64,000 nt of DNA from Microbacterium oxydans (GTDB taxonomy: Bacteria > Actinomycetota > Actinomycetes > Actinomycetales > Microbacteriaceae): assembly GCF_000956405.1 (NCBI RefSeq), contig NZ_JYIV01000028.1, positions 248,001-312,000 on the forward strand. The letters are read 5' to 3'. Below, one piece after another: positions 7,331 through 14,572 of this stretch; the stretch's first letter is position 1, and each line of letters begins with the position of its first letter. The notes beneath the pieces were generated by a model. That model was not told the DNA's origin. It did no database searches and saw only the letters and a program-made list of their open reading frames with translations. The translations under genes and the position numbers were made by a program.

Positions 7331-8344
7331 CTACGTTCGCCTTCGAGGGCCCTCGTCGCCGATCCCGAGCCTGGAGAAGGGGATGCCACGCACCACCCGT
7401 CGCCAGGGGTGTTCGCCGAGCGACCAGAGCAGTCCGGCTTCCAGGTCGAGAGCCAGGTCCTCACACCCGACGGGGAGGGGGACGGCGTCCGGAACCAGGG
7501 ACCCGCGGCTGCCGCTCCAGAGCGTCCCGGGGTGCAGGCGGTCCGACTGCGACACGAAGTGGTGCTCGCCCCAGCGGACGGCACCCTGCATCCGCTCGAT
7601 GCCCGGCGTGAAGCAGTCCAGCTCGGTGAAGCCGTCGTGGACGTCGAGCGGGATCCCGAACTCGCCGATCCTTCCGCTCCCGTCTCGTCGGTGCTCGCCG
7701 ATCAGCACACGATCCAGAAGGGTGCCGTCGTCGTCGAACACCCGCCCGAGGTAGGAGCAGCGCAGGGCGACGGGGTGCACGCGGGTGCGCACGGCGATCA
7801 TGGCGGTGCTGCGTCCACCTCGCCGGTTCGACCCGGCCAACCGCTGGGCGAGCGTGCCGCGCACCGTGCGGATGTCCGACAGATCGAACTCCCAGATGCC
7901 CCGGCCCGTCGCTGCGGCGAACAGCCGGTCCCCGAACCAGGCGAGACCGCCGGCGTGGATCCGCGCCGGGTGCAGTCCGCCCTCGTCGTCGGCGACCGCG
8001 AGCAGGATGTCGATGTGACGAGAGCGTTCGAGATCGATCAGTGTGACGCGCGAGGCGAGGTGCTCTCCCGACAGTTCCTGACGGAACCAGCTCACGGCCA
8101 GGGTGCGTCGGCCGCGCCATTCGCCGACGTCGACGCCCTGCGGATACCAGCGCCTGGTCCACGTCCTGGCGCTGAGCCAGCGCAGGTCGACGGTGTCACG
8201 TCGCCGCTGCCGCACGGGACGCCAGGTCGATCCGAAGGGCCAGAGCATCTCCCCATCGTCGTCGAAGCGGCCGCCGGGTGCGAACCGGACGACGACGGGA
8301 TGGGTGCCGGATGGGCGACGTCGCGGCCGACATCCTGCTGACAT
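7331..8344 (-). CDS. conserved hypothetical protein, possible beta-propeller
   Basis: A 337-residue soluble protein that I do not recognise. It has repeated short beta-like blocks with Trp/Asp motifs (for example RLFAAATGRGIWEFDLSD and GLLWSLGEHPWRR), which suggests a propeller-like fold. There is no signal peptide. ATG at 8344 follows TAACAT (plus 8350-8355) by 5 nt, so it may be leaderless. It is divergent from the glycan-island genes and may be functionally linked to them, as some propeller proteins accompany glycosyltransferases, but nothing in the sequence proves that. Confidence 0.6.
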   Translation of the reverse strand: MSAGCRPRRRPSGTHPVVVRFAPGGRFDDDGEMLWPFGSTWRPVRQRRRDTVDLRWLSARTWTRRWYPQGVDVGEWRGRRTLAVSWFRQELSGEHLASRVTLIDLERSRHIDILLAVADDEGGLHPARIHAGGLAWFGDRLFAAATGRGIWEFDLSDIRTVRGTLAQRLAGSNRRGGRSTAMIAVRTRVHPVALRCSYLGRVFDDDGTLLDRVLIGEHRRDGSGRIGEFGIPLDVHDGFTELDCFTPGIERMQGAVRWGEHHFVSQSDRLHPGTLWSGSRGSLVPDAVPLPVGCEDLALDLEAGLLWSLGEHPWRRVVRGIPFSRLGIGDEGPRRRT

Positions 8345-8698: not shown

Positions 8699-9679
8699 GT
8701 GCGCACACCCCTCGTCACCGTCATCCTGCCCGCGAAAGACGCCGGCGCGTACATCGGGACGACGCTCGAGACGCTCACGCGGCAGTTCGATGATCTCGGC
8801 GCTCTCAAGCTCGTCGCGATCGATGATGGTTCGCGCGACGAGACGGGTGCACTCATGCAGCGGTACGCGGAACGATTCCCCCACGCCGAGGTGCTGCGCA
8901 ACGAGTCCGCGCGCGGGTTGGCGACCGCTCGCAACCAGGGGCTCCCGCATGTCGAGGGTGATGCCTTCTGCTTCCTCGACGGCGACGACTGGATGCAGCC
9001 GCGTCGGCTCGATGTGCTGGTGTCGCGGATGCGCGAGCTCAAATGCGACTTCGTGCGCACAGACCATGTCACCGTGAGGGGCGGGACGCGCGCTCTGGTG
9101 CGTGCACCGTATCCGTGGCGCGGCCGGGTCATCGCTCCGCGGGATGCCATCCTGCCCGAGCACGAATCGACCATGGTCGACTACCCGTACGCCTGGGCGG
9201 GGCTCTTCCATCGCCGGATCATCGATCAGGGTCTGGCGGCGTTCCCCGATGGACTGTTCACCGCAGAGGATCGACCGTGGATCTGGCGACTGCATCTGCA
9301 GGCCGAGTCGTTCGCGGTGGTCGATGCGCCGGCACTGCTCTACCGGCGTGGTGTCGGCACATCGCTCACCCAGGCTCGTGACCGCAGGCAGCTCGACTTC
9401 GCGAAGGCGATGGACGAGGTCATCACGCTCGTCGAGGCGGATCCCGAGGCGAAGCGATTTCTCCCCAAAGTCGTCTGGACTGTGCTCGCCCTCAGCTCCC
9501 ACCACCTCGTGCGGGCCCGCCGGATGAGTCCTCGGCTGCGCAGCGAGATGCGGGCGGGGATCCTCGGTGTGCTCCGTCGGCTCCCGGCCGATGAGGTGGC
9601 CCTGGTGCTGGCGCGCCTCGACGGGCCGCGGCGCCGAGTCCTCGCGCGCATCCTCCGCCAGGCGGGCCGTGCCGCATGA
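8699..9679 (+). CDS. glycosyltransferase family 2 protein
   Basis: A 326-residue GT-A fold glycosyltransferase. VTVILPAKDAGAYI opens the nucleotide-binding half, IDDGSRDETG follows, and FLDGDDWM supplies the metal-binding DxD region near residue 85. The C-terminal 90 residues are helical and basic. GTG at 8699 is chosen over the upstream open frame because GGAG lies 4 nt before it and the GT2 fold begins immediately. It transfers an unknown sugar and is the first gene of the nonulosonic-acid operon. Its stop overlaps the next start by four bases (ATGA), indicating translational coupling. Confidence 0.85.
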   Translation: MRTPLVTVILPAKDAGAYIGTTLETLTRQFDDLGALKLVAIDDGSRDETGALMQRYAERFPHAEVLRNESARGLATARNQGLPHVEGDAFCFLDGDDWMQPRRLDVLVSRMRELKCDFVRTDHVTVRGGTRALVRAPYPWRGRVIAPRDAILPEHESTMVDYPYAWAGLFHRRIIDQGLAAFPDGLFTAEDRPWIWRLHLQAESFAVVDAPALLYRRGVGTSLTQARDRRQLDFAKAMDEVITLVEADPEAKRFLPKVVWTVLALSSHHLVRARRMSPRLRSEMRAGILGVLRRLPADEVALVLARLDGPRRRVLARILRQAGRAA

Positions 9680-11025
9680 CGCAGATCTTCGCCCTGCACA
9701 GCGCCTACGGACTCGCGACCGCGGCGGCCGCGGTGGATGCCGGACTGCTCGACGACCCGGCCGGCGGAGAGCGCATCCTGGTGCCCTTCACCTCGTCGAT
9801 CATCCCCGAGACCGTCACCGGGATCGGGGATGATCCGGCGCTCCGGTCACTGCGTACGCGGTTCGATCGCACGGAGCCGCTGAACGAGATGCTCATGCCG
9901 CGGCATCCGCGTTCCTGGGAACCGGACGCAGACGACCTCCCGATGCTCGAGCGGCTGTTCGCGCGCGCATGGGGGGTGGATACGCGCGAACTGGAGCTGT
10001 TCGTGCAGAGTCCGCAGGTGGCGCCGGCCCGCACGTTGATGGCGCTCTTCCCGACTGCGCGGATCACGATCGTCGGCGATGGTCTCATGACCTATGCGCC
10101 GATGCGCGTGCGGATGCCGTATCCGGTCGCTGCGCGGATCGAGCGGGTCGTCCATGCCGACGTCGTACCGGGTGTCCGGCCGCTCGTGGGCTCACCGGGC
10201 GCGCAAATCGTGCCGGTGCCGCCGGCGTCGTTCGCGGCGGCCCTCCGGGAGACGGACGTCGGGGACCTCATGCTCCCCGACGCCTCCCCGTCGACGGTGC
10301 TCGTGCTCGGCCAGTACCTGTCGGCGCTCGGTCTGATGACGGTGGCCGAGGAGATCGAGTTGCAGAAGCATCTGATCGACCGCGCGGCGAGGTGGGAGCC
10401 GCAGCGCATCCTCTTCAAGCCGCATCCGGCTGCGCCGCCGGTGGTGACGGCGGCCCTCGCGGCGCGCGCGCTCGATCAGGGCATCGACTTCGTGGAGTAT
10501 CGCGGTCCGCTCGCCGCGGAGCTGCTCGCCGAACGGACGGATGCGGTGGCCGTCGTCGCCGGGTTCTCCACCGCGTTGCCGACAGTGCGCACGCTCTTCG
10601 GACGCTCGATCGGTTCGGCGGGGAACGACGCGGTGCTCGCGGCGCTGACGCCGTTCGAGAACAGCAACCGGATCCCCGCGACCCTGGCCGATGCCCTGAC
10701 GCGTGCGGACTCTCCCTACTCCGACCCCGCTCGACTCCAGCTGCTGCTCGATGGGGTCGGCTATGCCATGCAGCCGGAGATCGCCGGCCACCTGCGTGGC
10801 CGCGCCGAAGAACTGCTGCGCGGGCTCGACCCAGGCGAGCGCGACCGGTACTTCTCGCCGCGACGGCTCGCCGAACTGCGACTGCCCGGCGCCCCGGCGG
10901 AGAACGTCGTGCGTCGTGCACTGCGACCTGTCGGGGGTCTGGGCAGGATCGAGGAGTGGCGACTGCACGCACTCGGCGCGCGGCGACGTGCAGGTCGGGT
11001 CTGGCGGGCGATACGCGGACGATGA
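9676..11025 (+). CDS. polysialyltransferase-like glycosyltransferase
   Basis: A 449-residue protein resembling the alpha-2,8-polysialyltransferase family (bacterial GT52/GT38-like). It opens with ALHSAYGLATAAAAVDAG, has an IVGDGLMTYAP segment near residue 135, and carries the FKPHPAAPP motif near residue 255, which corresponds to the HP motif that binds the CMP donor. A later AGFSTALPT stretch resembles the family's conserved Ser-Thr motif. It would transfer CMP-activated nonulosonic acid to a surface glycan. Start and stop are coupled to the neighbours: ATGA overlaps the GT2 stop, and NeuA starts 20 nt after its own stop. Confidence 0.75.
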   Translation: MTQIFALHSAYGLATAAAAVDAGLLDDPAGGERILVPFTSSIIPETVTGIGDDPALRSLRTRFDRTEPLNEMLMPRHPRSWEPDADDLPMLERLFARAWGVDTRELELFVQSPQVAPARTLMALFPTARITIVGDGLMTYAPMRVRMPYPVAARIERVVHADVVPGVRPLVGSPGAQIVPVPPASFAAALRETDVGDLMLPDASPSTVLVLGQYLSALGLMTVAEEIELQKHLIDRAARWEPQRILFKPHPAAPPVVTAALAARALDQGIDFVEYRGPLAAELLAERTDAVAVVAGFSTALPTVRTLFGRSIGSAGNDAVLAALTPFENSNRIPATLADALTRADSPYSDPARLQLLLDGVGYAMQPEIAGHLRGRAEELLRGLDPGERDRYFSPRRLAELRLPGAPAENVVRRALRPVGGLGRIEEWRLHALGARRRAGRVWRAIRGR

Positions 11026-11045
11026 TGACGACGAGGATAGGGACG

Positions 11046-12206
11046 ATGGACGAGCAGAGACCCCTCACGGTGGCGATCATCCCGGCACGGGGCGGATCGA
11101 AGCAGGTGCCGCGCAAGAACCTGCAGCGCGTCGGCGGAGTGCCGCTCGTCGAGCGTGCGGTGCGTGCGGCCGCCCGCGCCGCGGGCGTCGACCTGGTCGT
11201 GGTCTCGACCGATGATGACGAGATCGCAACGGTGGCGACTGCTGCGGGAGCCAGGGTGGTCCGTCGCCCCCCGGAGCTCTCGGGAGACACCGCGACCTCG
11301 GAGAGCGCGATCCTGCACGCCCTCGACGACCTCGAAGCGAGCGGCGACAGCGTCGATGTCGTGGCGTTCCTCCAGGCGACGTCGCCGTTCATCCCCAGTG
11401 ATGCGCTCGCCGCTGCCGTGGAGGAGATCCGCGCCGACCGTGCCGACAGCGTGTTCGCGGCGCACGAGACCTACGGCTTCCTCTGGCGCGAGGACGAACA
11501 CGGCGAAGCAGCGGCGATCAACCACGAGGCCGCTCATCGCCCGCGTCGCCAGGATCGGGAGCCCCACCACCTCGAGACCGGGGCGTTCTACGTGTTCCGG
11601 GCTGCCGGCTTCCGGGCGAGCAGACACCGCTTCTTCGGCAGGATCCGCATCGCTCGGGTGCCGGAGTGGACGGCGATCGAGATCGACGATGCGGACCAGC
11701 TCCGTGTGGCGCGCGCGCTCGCCGTCCTGCACGAGACGCCGGAGCCCATCCCGGTGCGCGCGGTGGTCACCGACTTCGACGGTGTGCACACCGATGACAC
11801 GGCCATCATCGACGCCGAGGGCGGGGAGCGCGTACGGGTCAGCCGGGAAGACGGTATGGGTGTCGCGCTGCTGCGTCGGGCCGGCGTGCCACTGCTGATC
11901 CTGTCGACCGAGGTCAATCCGGTGGTACGCGCTCGAGCCGACAAGCTCAGAGTGCCCGTGCTGCACGGCATCGACGACAAGGAGAGCGCGCTGCGCACCT
12001 GGTCGCACGAGAACGGAGTGCCGCTCGCCGACATCGCCTATCTCGGCAACGACGTCAACGACCTGCCGGCCATGCGGATCGTGGGGTGGCCGGTCGCCGT
12101 CGCGAACGCGCATCCGCAGGTGATCGAAGAGGCTCGTGTGGTCTTGCGCCGCCGAGGCGGCGACGGTGCCGTGCGGGAGCTGATCGAACGGGTGTTGTCG
12201 AGCTGA
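11046..12206 (+). CDS. neuA: CMP-sialate/Kdn synthetase fused to a KdsC-like HAD phosphatase
   Basis: A 386-residue two-domain protein. Residues 8-230 are an acylneuraminate cytidylyltransferase (IIPARGGSKQVPRKNLQ at 11-27, RPRRQD at 165-170, ETGAFYV near 177). Residues 238-386 are a KdsC-like HAD phosphatase with DFDGVHTD at 243-250, Lys312 and GNDVNDL at 335-341. The order and joint match vertebrate CMAS, but here the catalytic DxD is kept, so the phosphatase should be active, perhaps on a nonulosonate-9-phosphate. ATG at 11046 has GAGGATAGGG upstream; ATG 11022 or 11025, overlapping the preceding stop, is an alternative. It activates the sugar for the neighbouring transferases. Confidence 0.9.
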   Translation: MDEQRPLTVAIIPARGGSKQVPRKNLQRVGGVPLVERAVRAAARAAGVDLVVVSTDDDEIATVATAAGARVVRRPPELSGDTATSESAILHALDDLEASGDSVDVVAFLQATSPFIPSDALAAAVEEIRADRADSVFAAHETYGFLWREDEHGEAAAINHEAAHRPRRQDREPHHLETGAFYVFRAAGFRASRHRFFGRIRIARVPEWTAIEIDDADQLRVARALAVLHETPEPIPVRAVVTDFDGVHTDDTAIIDAEGGERVRVSREDGMGVALLRRAGVPLLILSTEVNPVVRARADKLRVPVLHGIDDKESALRTWSHENGVPLADIAYLGNDVNDLPAMRIVGWPVAVANAHPQVIEEARVVLRRRGGDGAVRELIERVLSS

Positions 12207-12299
12207 CCGATGCCGGTAACCCGGTGGTCTTCGGGTGTTCATCCTCGCCGCGTAGTCAGGACGAAGGGGTTGCACCAACGCTCGAACACCGGAGGAATC

Positions 12300-13172
12300 A
12301 TGACTGTCAGCATCGGCTCACGAGTGATCGGCGGCGGCCGTCCGGCCTACGTCATCGCGGAGATCGGCCTCAACCACAACGGCGACGTCGACATCGCGAA
12401 GAAGCTCATCGACGTCGCGGCTCGAGCCGGCGCCGACGCGGTCAAGTTCCAGAAGCGCACCCCGGAGATCTCCACCCCTGAGCACATGCGCGATGTCCCG
12501 CGCGAGACTCCCTGGGGTGTGATGAGCTACCTCGACTACCGTCGGCGAGTCGAGTTCGGCCGGGAGGAGTACATCGAGATCGGCGACCATGCCACGATGC
12601 TCGGGCTGGACTGGTTCGCGTCGCCGTGGGATGTGCCCAGCGTCGACTTCCTCGAAGACCTGGGTGTCGTGGCGCACAAGGTCGCCTCGGCGAGTCTCAC
12701 CGACACCGAGCTGCTGATCGCGCTGCGGGAGACCGGCAAGCCCGTGATCCTCTCCACCGGCATGTCGACCATCGAGCAGATCGACCGCGCGCTGGAGACC
12801 CTCGGCACCGACCTGGTGGTCCTCATGCACGCCACTTCGACCTACCCGCTGGAGCCCGAGGAGGCGAACCTCCGGGTGATCGCGACGCTGCGCGACCGCT
12901 ACCCCGGAGTGCCCGTCGGCTACTCGGGGCATGAGCGTGGGCTGCAGATCTCGCTCGCCGCGGTGGCCATCGGCGCCGTCGCGATCGAGCGGCACATCAC
13001 GCTGGACCGCACGATGTGGGGGTCCGACCATGCGGCATCGCTCGAGCCGACGGGGCTGGAGCACCTTGTGCGCGACATCCGCGTGATCGAGCGCGCGACC
13101 GGTGACGGCGTCAAGCGGGTGTTCGACAGCGAGCGGGCGCCGATGGCGAAGCTGCGCCGCATCTCCGCATGA
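12300..13172 (+). CDS. neuB: N-acetylneuraminate/nonulosonate synthase without SAF domain
   Basis: A 290-residue TIM-barrel synthase that condenses phosphoenolpyruvate with an N-acylmannosamine or hexose substrate. EIGLNHNGDVDIAKKL, DAVKFQKR, ILSTGMS, HATSTYPLEPEEANLR and GYSGHERG are the hallmark segments. NeuB proteins usually have about 340-350 residues with a C-terminal antifreeze-like SAF domain; here the protein stops after the barrel. ATG at 12300 follows GGAGGA at 12291-12296. GGTGTTC (12234-12240) can pair with GAACACC (12284-12290) right beside that site and could hide it. Its stop overlaps the next gene (ATGA). Confidence 0.9.
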   Translation: MTVSIGSRVIGGGRPAYVIAEIGLNHNGDVDIAKKLIDVAARAGADAVKFQKRTPEISTPEHMRDVPRETPWGVMSYLDYRRRVEFGREEYIEIGDHATMLGLDWFASPWDVPSVDFLEDLGVVAHKVASASLTDTELLIALRETGKPVILSTGMSTIEQIDRALETLGTDLVVLMHATSTYPLEPEEANLRVIATLRDRYPGVPVGYSGHERGLQISLAAVAIGAVAIERHITLDRTMWGSDHAASLEPTGLEHLVRDIRVIERATGDGVKRVFDSERAPMAKLRRISA

Positions 13173-14572
13173 CAGAGGCGGGCGTGACCGGTACTCCCGG
13201 CATCCGCGTCGTCGCCGTCGCGGACGCCGACTCGTTCGTGAAATGGGCGGCGTCCCTGCTCGCGGCCGTGCCGGGGCTGCGTCCCCATCTGCTGCTCGTG
13301 CGCACCCCGCTCACCGCGAGCGCCGAGCAGGAGCGGTCGGCACTCGCCGGCACCGGGCTCGGACCGCACGACGTCACCCGCCTCGGCTTCGCGGAGACGG
13401 CGGACTGGCTGACGCGTCAGCGCCCCGATGTGGTGCTGCTCGCCGGGCGCGGACCGTTCGTGCGCGTGATGGGACGCGTGATCGATGCCCTTCCGCATCG
13501 CCCTGTGACCGTCTCGGGACTGCCGGGCATGGCGATCCCCGCGCAGCGCGGTGCGCTCGACTATCGCCGTCACACCGACCTGCTCGTGGTGCATTCCCAC
13601 CGCGAGGTACGCGCCTTCGAGGAGCTCGGGCGTCGGATCGGAGTGCACACACCGGTGGCGCTCGCGACCCTTCCGTTCGCCCGGCCTCGGCAACGGATAC
13701 TGCGCCCGGAGCGGCTCCGGGTCGACGCTGTCGTCAGCAGCCGGAGCGGTGTCGCCGTCGCCGAGCGTCCGGCTCCGACCGCCCCGGTACGGCAACCCGC
13801 CACGGACATCGTCTTCGCCGCGCAGGCTCTCGTGCCCGCGGCGAAGGAACAGCGCGCCGAGATCGCGGCTCTGCTCGTGCGGGCAGCTGAGGCCGAGCCC
13901 GCGCGCCGAGTGGTGGTCAAGCTGCGGTCGCGGCCGGGGGAGTCGGAGACGCACCTCGAACGTGAACCGTATGCGGGGCTGCTGCCCTCGCGCCTTCCGA
14001 AGAACCTGGTCTTCTCGTACGACTCGATGAGCACCGCACTGCAGAGGGCCGCGGGACTCGTCACCGTCAGCTCGACCGCCGCGATCGAGGCCACGGCACT
14101 CGGCATCCCCGTGATCGCGCTCGACTCGTTCGGGGTGAGCAAGAGCCTGTTGAACACGGTGTTCGTGGGCAGCGGTCTGCTCGGCGGTCGCAGTGAGGTC
14201 GTCGCAGGGCGCTTCCGGCATCCGCACCCCGACTGGCTGCGCGACAACTACTTCCACCCCGAGAAGGAGTCCACGTGGTGGGAGCGGGTAGAGCAGCTCG
14301 TGGCACTGCGGCGCTCCGGAGCCCTTCCCGCGCGGCGGGTGCCTGCGGCGCGGGGCGGATCGCTGCATGAAGCCTGGCACCGGGTGAGTGTGCTCGGCAC
14401 GGAGGACCGGACGATGCAGGGAACGGTCGCGCTCGCCGTGGGTGCGCCTGCGACGAGGGCTCTCGCCGCCTTGCGTCGACACCGGGCACCGTCGGACGGG
14501 GGCACCTGGGCAGACGCCTCGACCGACTTCACGCTCGAACCCAACCCGTTCGACGACTCCCTGCGCCGCTGA
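13169..14572 (+). CDS. DUF6716 putative glycosyltransferase
   Basis: A 467-residue protein related to the DUF6716 glycosyltransferase group. It has an N-terminal Rossmann-like half and a C-terminal half with a GT-B-like signature: KLRSRPGESETH near residue 250, then VTVSSTAAIEATALGIPVIALDSFG near 300-325, which resembles the nucleotide-sugar region of KpsC/CDP-glycerol transferases. No membrane segment or signal peptide is visible. It is translationally coupled to neuB and closes the operon, so transfer of the CMP-activated acid or of a neighbouring residue is likely. The acceptor and donor cannot be inferred. Confidence 0.7.
   Translation: MTEAGVTGTPGIRVVAVADADSFVKWAASLLAAVPGLRPHLLLVRTPLTASAEQERSALAGTGLGPHDVTRLGFAETADWLTRQRPDVVLLAGRGPFVRVMGRVIDALPHRPVTVSGLPGMAIPAQRGALDYRRHTDLLVVHSHREVRAFEELGRRIGVHTPVALATLPFARPRQRILRPERLRVDAVVSSRSGVAVAERPAPTAPVRQPATDIVFAAQALVPAAKEQRAEIAALLVRAAEAEPARRVVVKLRSRPGESETHLEREPYAGLLPSRLPKNLVFSYDSMSTALQRAAGLVTVSSTAAIEATALGIPVIALDSFGVSKSLLNTVFVGSGLLGGRSEVVAGRFRHPHPDWLRDNYFHPEKESTWWERVEQLVALRRSGALPARRVPAARGGSLHEAWHRVSVLGTEDRTMQGTVALAVGAPATRALAALRRHRAPSDGGTWADASTDFTLEPNPFDDSLRR

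Follow-up and report, generated by a model that had tools for sequence, protein, structure and literature searches.

Analysis of a 64,000-nucleotide stretch of the genome of the soil bacterium Microbacterium oxydans (assembly GCF_000956405.1, contig NZ_JYIV01000028.1, positions 248,001–312,000 of the forward strand; hereafter the window) revealed an operon at 8699–14572 (+) comprising two glycosyltransferase genes, a fusion of NeuA with a HAD domain, a NeuB-type synthase and a DUF6716 protein. Judging from sequence comparisons, this locus probably makes CMP-Kdn, i.e., 3-deoxy-D-glycero-D-galacto-nonulosonic acid (Kdn), a relative of sialic acid, activated with cytidine monophosphate (CMP), through a 9-phosphate intermediate. 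The Kdn would then be added to a polymer of the cell surface, which is probably a wall glycopolymer like teichulosonic acid. In the proposed pathway, NeuB would condense mannose-6-phosphate and phosphoenolpyruvate to Kdn-9-phosphate, the HAD domain would take off the phosphate to give Kdn, and the NeuA domain of the same chain would convert Kdn to CMP-Kdn. The latter would be used by DUF6716 and the polysialyltransferase-like PF07388 protein, with the GT2 glycosyltransferase adding another sugar.

Conservation of the operon in Microbacterium

All five open reading frames (ORFs) are present on the same strand and adjacent ones overlap by a few bases, except for NeuA-HAD and NeuB, which are separated by a 93-base gap. 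The first-pass annotation of the window had treated them as one set, and the comparison of related loci agrees with this. We found 39 loci containing the fusion, all from Microbacterium or Microbacteriaceae, the closest being that of M. oxydans NBRC 15586 (95%). The complete five-gene set was revealed in 36 of these 39 Microbacterium loci with identity levels of 62–98% and is therefore not a chance arrangement. Two of the exceptions (L018 and L036) are truncated at the end of a contig, and the third (L038) does not contain GT2 and PF07388 within the stretch; in one more locus (L019) the reading frame is disturbed at the fusion end and in DUF6716. The operon is thus real and well conserved. Its recurring core consists of NeuA-HAD, NeuB and DUF6716, and several relatives do not have GT2 and PF07388 near this core.

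The NeuA-HAD fusion

The central gene (11025–12206, +) matches PF02348 as well as the NF058599 and KdsC models and encodes a predicted CMP-nonulosonate synthetase joined to a phosphatase. Alternative starts are located at ATG11022 and ATG11046; the relatives carry the fusion as one ORF. The NeuA cytidylyltransferase domain (11025–11744, +) has 9t4z (132.8 bits) and mouse CMAS 1qwj (107.5 bits) as its top matches in the PDB. The HAD domain (11745–12203, +), which is of the KdsC/Kdn-9-phosphate phosphatase type, matches 3mmz (170.7 bits), Bacteroides thetaiotaomicron BT1713 (3e81, 86.9 bits) and CMAS 3ewi (50.8 bits). The motifs RPRRQD, GND and TDFDGVHTD, named in the first-pass annotation (the last one as DFDGVHTD), were found in the sequence.

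The comparison with CMAS and with the Bacteroides enzyme BT1713, of a kind also proposed there, showed that the HAD nucleophile Asp250 (11772–11774, +) corresponds to Asp10 of BT1713. This residue, the Asp two positions further, the motif-3 Lys, and Glu296, Arg304 and Lys307 (within 11910–11945, +), which correspond to BT1713 Glu56, Arg64 and Lys67, are kept in all 72 actinobacterial and all four alphaproteobacterial fusions. In contrast, mouse CMAS (3ewi) contains Asn at the nucleophile position, so the bacterial catalytic motif is intact and the vertebrate domain degenerate, as had been claimed. Glu56, Arg64 and Lys67 were reportedly described by Lu et al. in 2009 as markers of Kdn-9-phosphate phosphatases, with an important role of Glu56; PDB entry 4hgq carries E56A. 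Four labelled KdsC chains contain Arg at the Glu56 position and Thr, Thr, Ala and Thr at the Lys67 position, and three further HAD-IIIA chains also have no Glu/Lys markers. A KdsC reading of the HAD domain is therefore disfavoured by the marker residues.

The likeness of the fusion to vertebrate CMAS seen in this comparison is partial. The NeuA-HAD order and RPRRQD are shared and the NeuA domains are related with moderate tree support (84/80), but the CMAS HAD domain is not specially close, as it scores better against other HADs than against 3mmz. The vertebrate fusion may or may not have a common origin with the bacterial one.

The NeuB-type synthase

The NeuB gene (12300–13172, +) starts at ATG12300 with GGAGG upstream and encodes a protein of 290 aa that matches PF03102 (262.9 bits) and does not match PF08666 (the SAF domain). 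All 70 analyzed NeuBs of fusion loci are 285–319 aa long versus 361–372 aa for six NeuBs from NeuC-containing clusters. A provisional human NANS sequence was included in the tree and the alignment. In the tree, for which the tool issued long-branch warnings, 38 fusion-locus rows and human NANS fall on one side of a branch with 100/96 support, and the NeuC-cluster NeuBs, Neisseria meningitidis NeuB, PseI and SpsE on the other.

The alignment points to Lys52 (12453–12455, +), located at the position of N. meningitidis NeuB Thr56, as a candidate phosphate contact: Lys is present in 70 of 70 actinobacterial rows, two alphaproteobacterial rows and the provisional NANS sequence, and Thr in all six NeuC-cluster NeuBs, N. 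meningitidis NeuB and two PseI proteins. The position of N. meningitidis Glu134 is occupied by Ser in 65 and by Cys in five of the 70 fusion-locus NeuBs, and by Asp in the provisional NANS sequence and the NeuC-cluster NeuBs. As judged from these sequences, the synthase groups with the NANS-type 9-phosphate synthases, apart from the NeuC-linked NeuBs; since it has no SAF domain, it would be a SAF-less relative of NANS and not a NANS. According to the accessible part of a report on N. meningitidis NeuB, Arg314 of its SAF domain contacts N-acetylmannosamine (ManNAc) (PMC6795526); this residue has no partner in the fusion-locus NeuB because the whole domain is missing.

Genes for ManNAc formation

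A tblastn search (E 1e-5) for WecB, NeuC, NanE and AGE proteins covered 76 fusion loci, 72 actinobacterial and four alphaproteobacterial. No homologues of any of them were detected at the 72 actinobacterial loci, whereas NeuC lies beside NeuB in six of eight contrast clusters (L075–L082). The remaining two of these (L081, 9.2–11.1 kb, and L082, 8.7–10.5 kb) represent another nonulosonate cluster type, with a NeuB of 640–648 aa that has a long extra C-terminal part and stands beside a HAD-less NeuA.

The source genome contains a single PF02350 protein, which scores 296.4 bits with the wecB model (cut-off 210.15) and 55.4 bits with the NeuC model (cut-off 235.9). Being of the WecB type and located on a different contig, it was ruled out as a distant NeuC serving the locus. 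Thus, the claim that NeuC is missing was borne out for the locus and, within the reach of PF02350, also for the 94.5% complete assembly: no hydrolysing UDP-GlcNAc 2-epimerase was found in either. The genome search proposed earlier also revealed one copy of NanE, which lies next to a ROK protein and not near the operon, no AGE, and a partial match to the phosphomannose isomerase family PF20511 (56.5 bits).

Among 119 Microbacterium genomes, the fusion is present in 72, PF02350 in 47, NanE in 25 and AGE in six. The count of 72 includes six fusions that are in pieces or cut and one (G041) with a single in-frame TGA; matches below 30 bits were excluded. All three families are distributed independently of the fusion (Fisher test, kinship ignored): PF02350 was found in 31/72 genomes with the fusion versus 16/47 without it (p 0.34), NanE in 17/72 versus 8/47 (p 0.49) and AGE in 5/72 versus 1/47 (p 0.40). 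Moreover, 35 of the 72 fusion-bearing genomes contain none of them.

Distribution and variants of the gene set

To the 383 genomes of the class analyzed here corresponded 101 matches, 18 of which (in 18 genomes, ≤43% identity) were set apart as other NeuA/HAD proteins. The NeuA type described above was found in 83 genomes from nine actinobacterial families: 67 contain it in full length with HAD, 10 as two pieces of one open frame, five without HAD and one (G332) as fragments only. Among 26 loci of other genera, NeuB lies within the stretch in 24 and DUF6716 in 22. In six of the 26 (L048, L053, L054, L056, L065 and L066; L053 was checked with Pfam) NeuA, HAD and NeuB form a single ORF of 678–707 aa, which likely encodes a trifunctional CMP-Kdn enzyme, as predicted from its domains.

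The five genomes with a HAD-less NeuA (G241, G382, G461, G419 and G296) keep it beside the rest of the set. In their six loci (L098–L103) NeuA and NeuB are contained in one ORF (three loci) or are separate (three loci), and all of them carry the Lys52 motif KFQKRTP. Searches of the whole genomes gave a single weak match (35%) to this HAD type, in G296, and nothing in the other four. By analogy with Prymnesium parvum, as described in the accessible part of the report (PMC6200933), dephosphorylation in these genomes, if needed, would have to come from another phosphatase.

The set is also found outside Actinomycetota. A collection of plasmids contained 11 records with at least 80% of the fusion, from Nonomuraea and ten Alphaproteobacteria; five of them were inspected. 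Plasmid pSymB of Sinorhizobium meliloti carries NeuB (312 aa, no SAF), NeuA-HAD and DUF6716 in a row; in Tritonibacter and Maritalea DUF6716 is annotated near the fusion, and Marinovum has a 35% match.

DUF6716

The last gene of the operon (13169–14572, +) matches PF20471 (419.6 bits) and encodes a putative glycosyltransferase. DUF6716 was detected above the cut-off in 86 of the 383 genomes. Of these, 81 are among the 83 that carry this NeuA type, and none is among the 18 with other NeuA/HAD matches. Some genomes contain two or three copies.

The remaining five genomes with DUF6716 (L088–L092) represent one genus and do not have this NeuA type. No nonulosonate genes were detected there by tblastn within about 7–9 kb on either side (about 7 kb for L088), and four neighbouring proteins from two of these genomes, analyzed with Pfam, comprised a ROK protein, acyltransferases and one protein without a match. 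DUF6716 was also found above the cut-off in the Escherichia coli control genome. No paper on the family was found in the open-licence literature.

Weighing of the proposed pathway

The Kdn 9-phosphate route suggested by the first-pass annotation is favoured by the absence of NeuC, NanE and AGE from all 72 actinobacterial loci, the genome-wide independence of these families from the fusion, the HAD markers and the NANS-like NeuB. Several observations weigh against it. The phosphatase on the synthetase, a part of that suggestion, is not indispensable, since in five genomes the other genes of the set are found with no HAD. BT1713 Asp103 (motif 4) is replaced by Asn in all 76 fusions, the 72 actinobacterial ones included, as in 3mmz, and metal binding may therefore differ. 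The Kdn-9-phosphatase model NF058599, the top NCBIfam model for the HAD domain, gives 102.6 bits, below its cut-off of 180; therefore, the domain may work like BT1713 and is not filed as its equivalog. The assignment of the three markers relies on what Lu et al. reportedly described. Human NANS makes both N-acetylneuraminic acid (Neu5Ac) 9-phosphate and Kdn-9-phosphate, and since its provisional sequence also contains Lys52, this residue speaks for a phosphate and not for Kdn. Finally, an AGE epimerase adjoins the fusion in three of the four alphaproteobacterial loci (L085–L087), and the presence of NanE means that ManNAc-6-phosphate could be made in the source strain.

The last point bears on a vertebrate-like pathway to Neu5Ac, in which NanE acting in reverse would provide ManNAc-6-phosphate, NeuB would form Neu5Ac-9-phosphate, and HAD and NeuA would finish the synthesis. 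It would agree with the resemblance of NeuB to the provisional NANS sequence, NANS being a ManNAc-6-phosphate user, and with the HAD markers, which read the 9-phosphate and not C5. We consider it unlikely, as NanE occurs at the same rate in genomes with and without the fusion, its copy in the source genome looks catabolic in its position beside the ROK protein, and NeuB has neither SAF with Arg314 nor an acidic residue at the Glu134 position. The replacement in motif 4 and the HAD-less genomes would also be compatible with a product other than Kdn, that is, a different nonulosonate or an acid like 3-deoxy-D-manno-octulosonic acid (Kdo), with HAD acting on another phosphate or idle. The best NCBIfam model for the NeuA domain is PseF (128.8 bits, below the cut-off of 205.7), which points in the same direction. 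However, HAD carries the Kdn-9-phosphate phosphatase markers and not the KdsC residues, no dehydratase or aminotransferase for pseudaminic or legionaminic acid is found among the locus genes, and the synthase is NeuB and not KdsA, which makes such a product quite improbable.

A further alternative is that DUF6716 is itself the missing UDP-sugar 2-epimerase of a NeuC-like pathway. It is a nearly constant companion of the fusion, and its AlphaFold2 model (26 Microbacteriaceae rows; predicted local distance difference test score, pLDDT, 74.5; predicted template modelling score, pTM, 0.78) matched best the non-hydrolysing UDP-GlcNAc 2-epimerases (Z 22.5 over 299 residues, 3.2 Å), followed by plant UDP-glycosyltransferases (Z 20.5), a result that also counts against the proposed pathway. 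The predicted fold is GT-B-like, and since the epimerases have it in common with GT-B transferases, this ranking carries little weight and does not decide between the two; nor does absence from the list of structural matches speak against any other family. Profile comparison gave a probability of 5.4% over 95 columns for NeuC/WecB and of 2.7% for PF07388 proteins. In addition, DUF6716 is present in two or three copies in some genomes, is kept beside AGE epimerases and also occurs in five genomes, all of one genus, that do not contain this NeuA. The phosphatase, moreover, would have no function in a route through free sugars. We therefore regard an epimerase role as very unlikely and favour DUF6716 as a putative glycosyltransferase.

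Accessory glycosyltransferases and neighbouring genes

The Kdn pathway proposed here includes two accessory genes at the start of the operon. The GT2 glycosyltransferase gene (8699–9679, +; PF00535, 91.6 bits) starts at GTG8699, with orthologues aligning from residue 1, and is not kept in all relatives of the locus. The polysialyltransferase-like glycosyltransferase (9676–11025, +) matches PF07388 with 51.8 bits (cut-off 23.3) and accompanies GT2 in 17 of the 26 loci of other genera. Export genes for the polymer were identified neither at the locus nor among nine neighbour proteins of three loci of other genera. An uncharacterised gene on the reverse strand (7331–8344, −), without a Pfam or NCBIfam match, adjoins the operon in 35 of the 39 Microbacterium loci.

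Significance

It can be hypothesized, with about even chances, that the genes form a distinct 9-phosphate module spread across Actinomycetota and some Alphaproteobacteria, and that loss of SAF marks synthases no longer holding an N-acetyl group. Such a module would contain three enzymes, joined two by two or all in one chain (a SAF-less NANS-like synthase, a Kdn-9-phosphate phosphatase and a CMP-Kdn synthetase), and DUF6716, which would then represent a new Kdn transferase family. Microbacterium gains a concrete candidate set of Kdn genes with a predicted precursor, and DUF6716, a family without an assigned role, a likely task. The annotation 'N-acetylneuraminate synthase' masks whether bacterial NeuB clusters use a sugar phosphate or free ManNAc; the natural two-domain, three-domain and HAD-less variants, together with the HAD Glu/Lys residues and NeuB Lys52, could separate them.

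Comparison with known systems

Kdn-containing wall polymers, which the first-pass annotation had mentioned for actinobacteria, are indeed described: according to the accessible parts of two reports, Streptomyces walls carry a teichulosonic acid of galactose and Kdn (PMC11481543, PMC7831098). Genes SCO4873–SCO4882 of Streptomyces coelicolor are given as the teichulosonic-acid cluster, activated by PhoP, in the accessible part of another (PMC13011467). The labels seen in such partly accessible sources are hypothetical (SCO4877), glycosyltransferase (SCO4878), conserved hypothetical (SCO4879), transferase (SCO4880) and polysaccharide biosynthesis (SCO4881), and the Planobispora counterpart of SCO4880 is labelled sialic acid synthase. 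The order PF07388, GT2, DUF6716, NeuA-HAD, NeuB in six of the seven loci of our family f24 fits the labels of SCO4877–SCO4881, a match by order and labels only. Six of the seven Streptomyces-like f24 loci (L058–L061, L067 and L068; not L057) contain PF07388 and GT2, and we infer, partly from this gene order, that f24 corresponds to Streptomyces. The Microbacterium operon shares the set of NeuA, NeuB, PF07388, GT2 and DUF6716 genes, as judged by labels, but differs in their order. By its gene content, it represents a further member of the already known actinobacterial teichulosonic-acid (Kdn) cluster type. In the open-licence literature we found no report of Kdn or a Kdn polymer in Microbacterium and, for these clusters, no statement on a 9-phosphate route, the fusion or the role of DUF6716. 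New here are the three-domain NeuA-HAD-NeuB protein of other genera, the link with DUF6716 (81/83) and the spread to Sinorhizobium.

Of the better known enzymes, BT1713 shares Asp10, Glu56, Arg64 and Lys67 and the same proposed route, but it is a separate protein, whereas the Microbacterium HAD is fused to NeuA and contains Asn in place of Asp103. Vertebrate CMAS and NANS share the NeuA-HAD order and RPRRQD, and the Microbacterium NeuB is closest to the provisional NANS sequence; they differ in the lost nucleophile of the CMAS HAD and in the SAF domain of NANS. P. parvum follows the order mannose-6-phosphate, Kdn-9-phosphate, CMP-Kdn proposed here; in the accessible part of the report its Kdn-9-phosphate synthetase is said to use mannose-6-phosphate only and, like in the HAD-less actinobacteria, no dedicated phosphatase is found (PMC6200933). 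It differs in being a eukaryote with separate genes and no HAD.

Within the genus, some Microbacterium strains carry a second type of nonulosonate cluster with NeuC, NeuB and NeuA together (L075–L080) and the same three reaction types. Unlike the operon, these clusters contain NeuC beside NeuB in all six cases, a NeuA without HAD, and a NeuB of 361–372 aa with 34–38% identity to the operon NeuB, with SAF just above the cut-off in one of them (L076).

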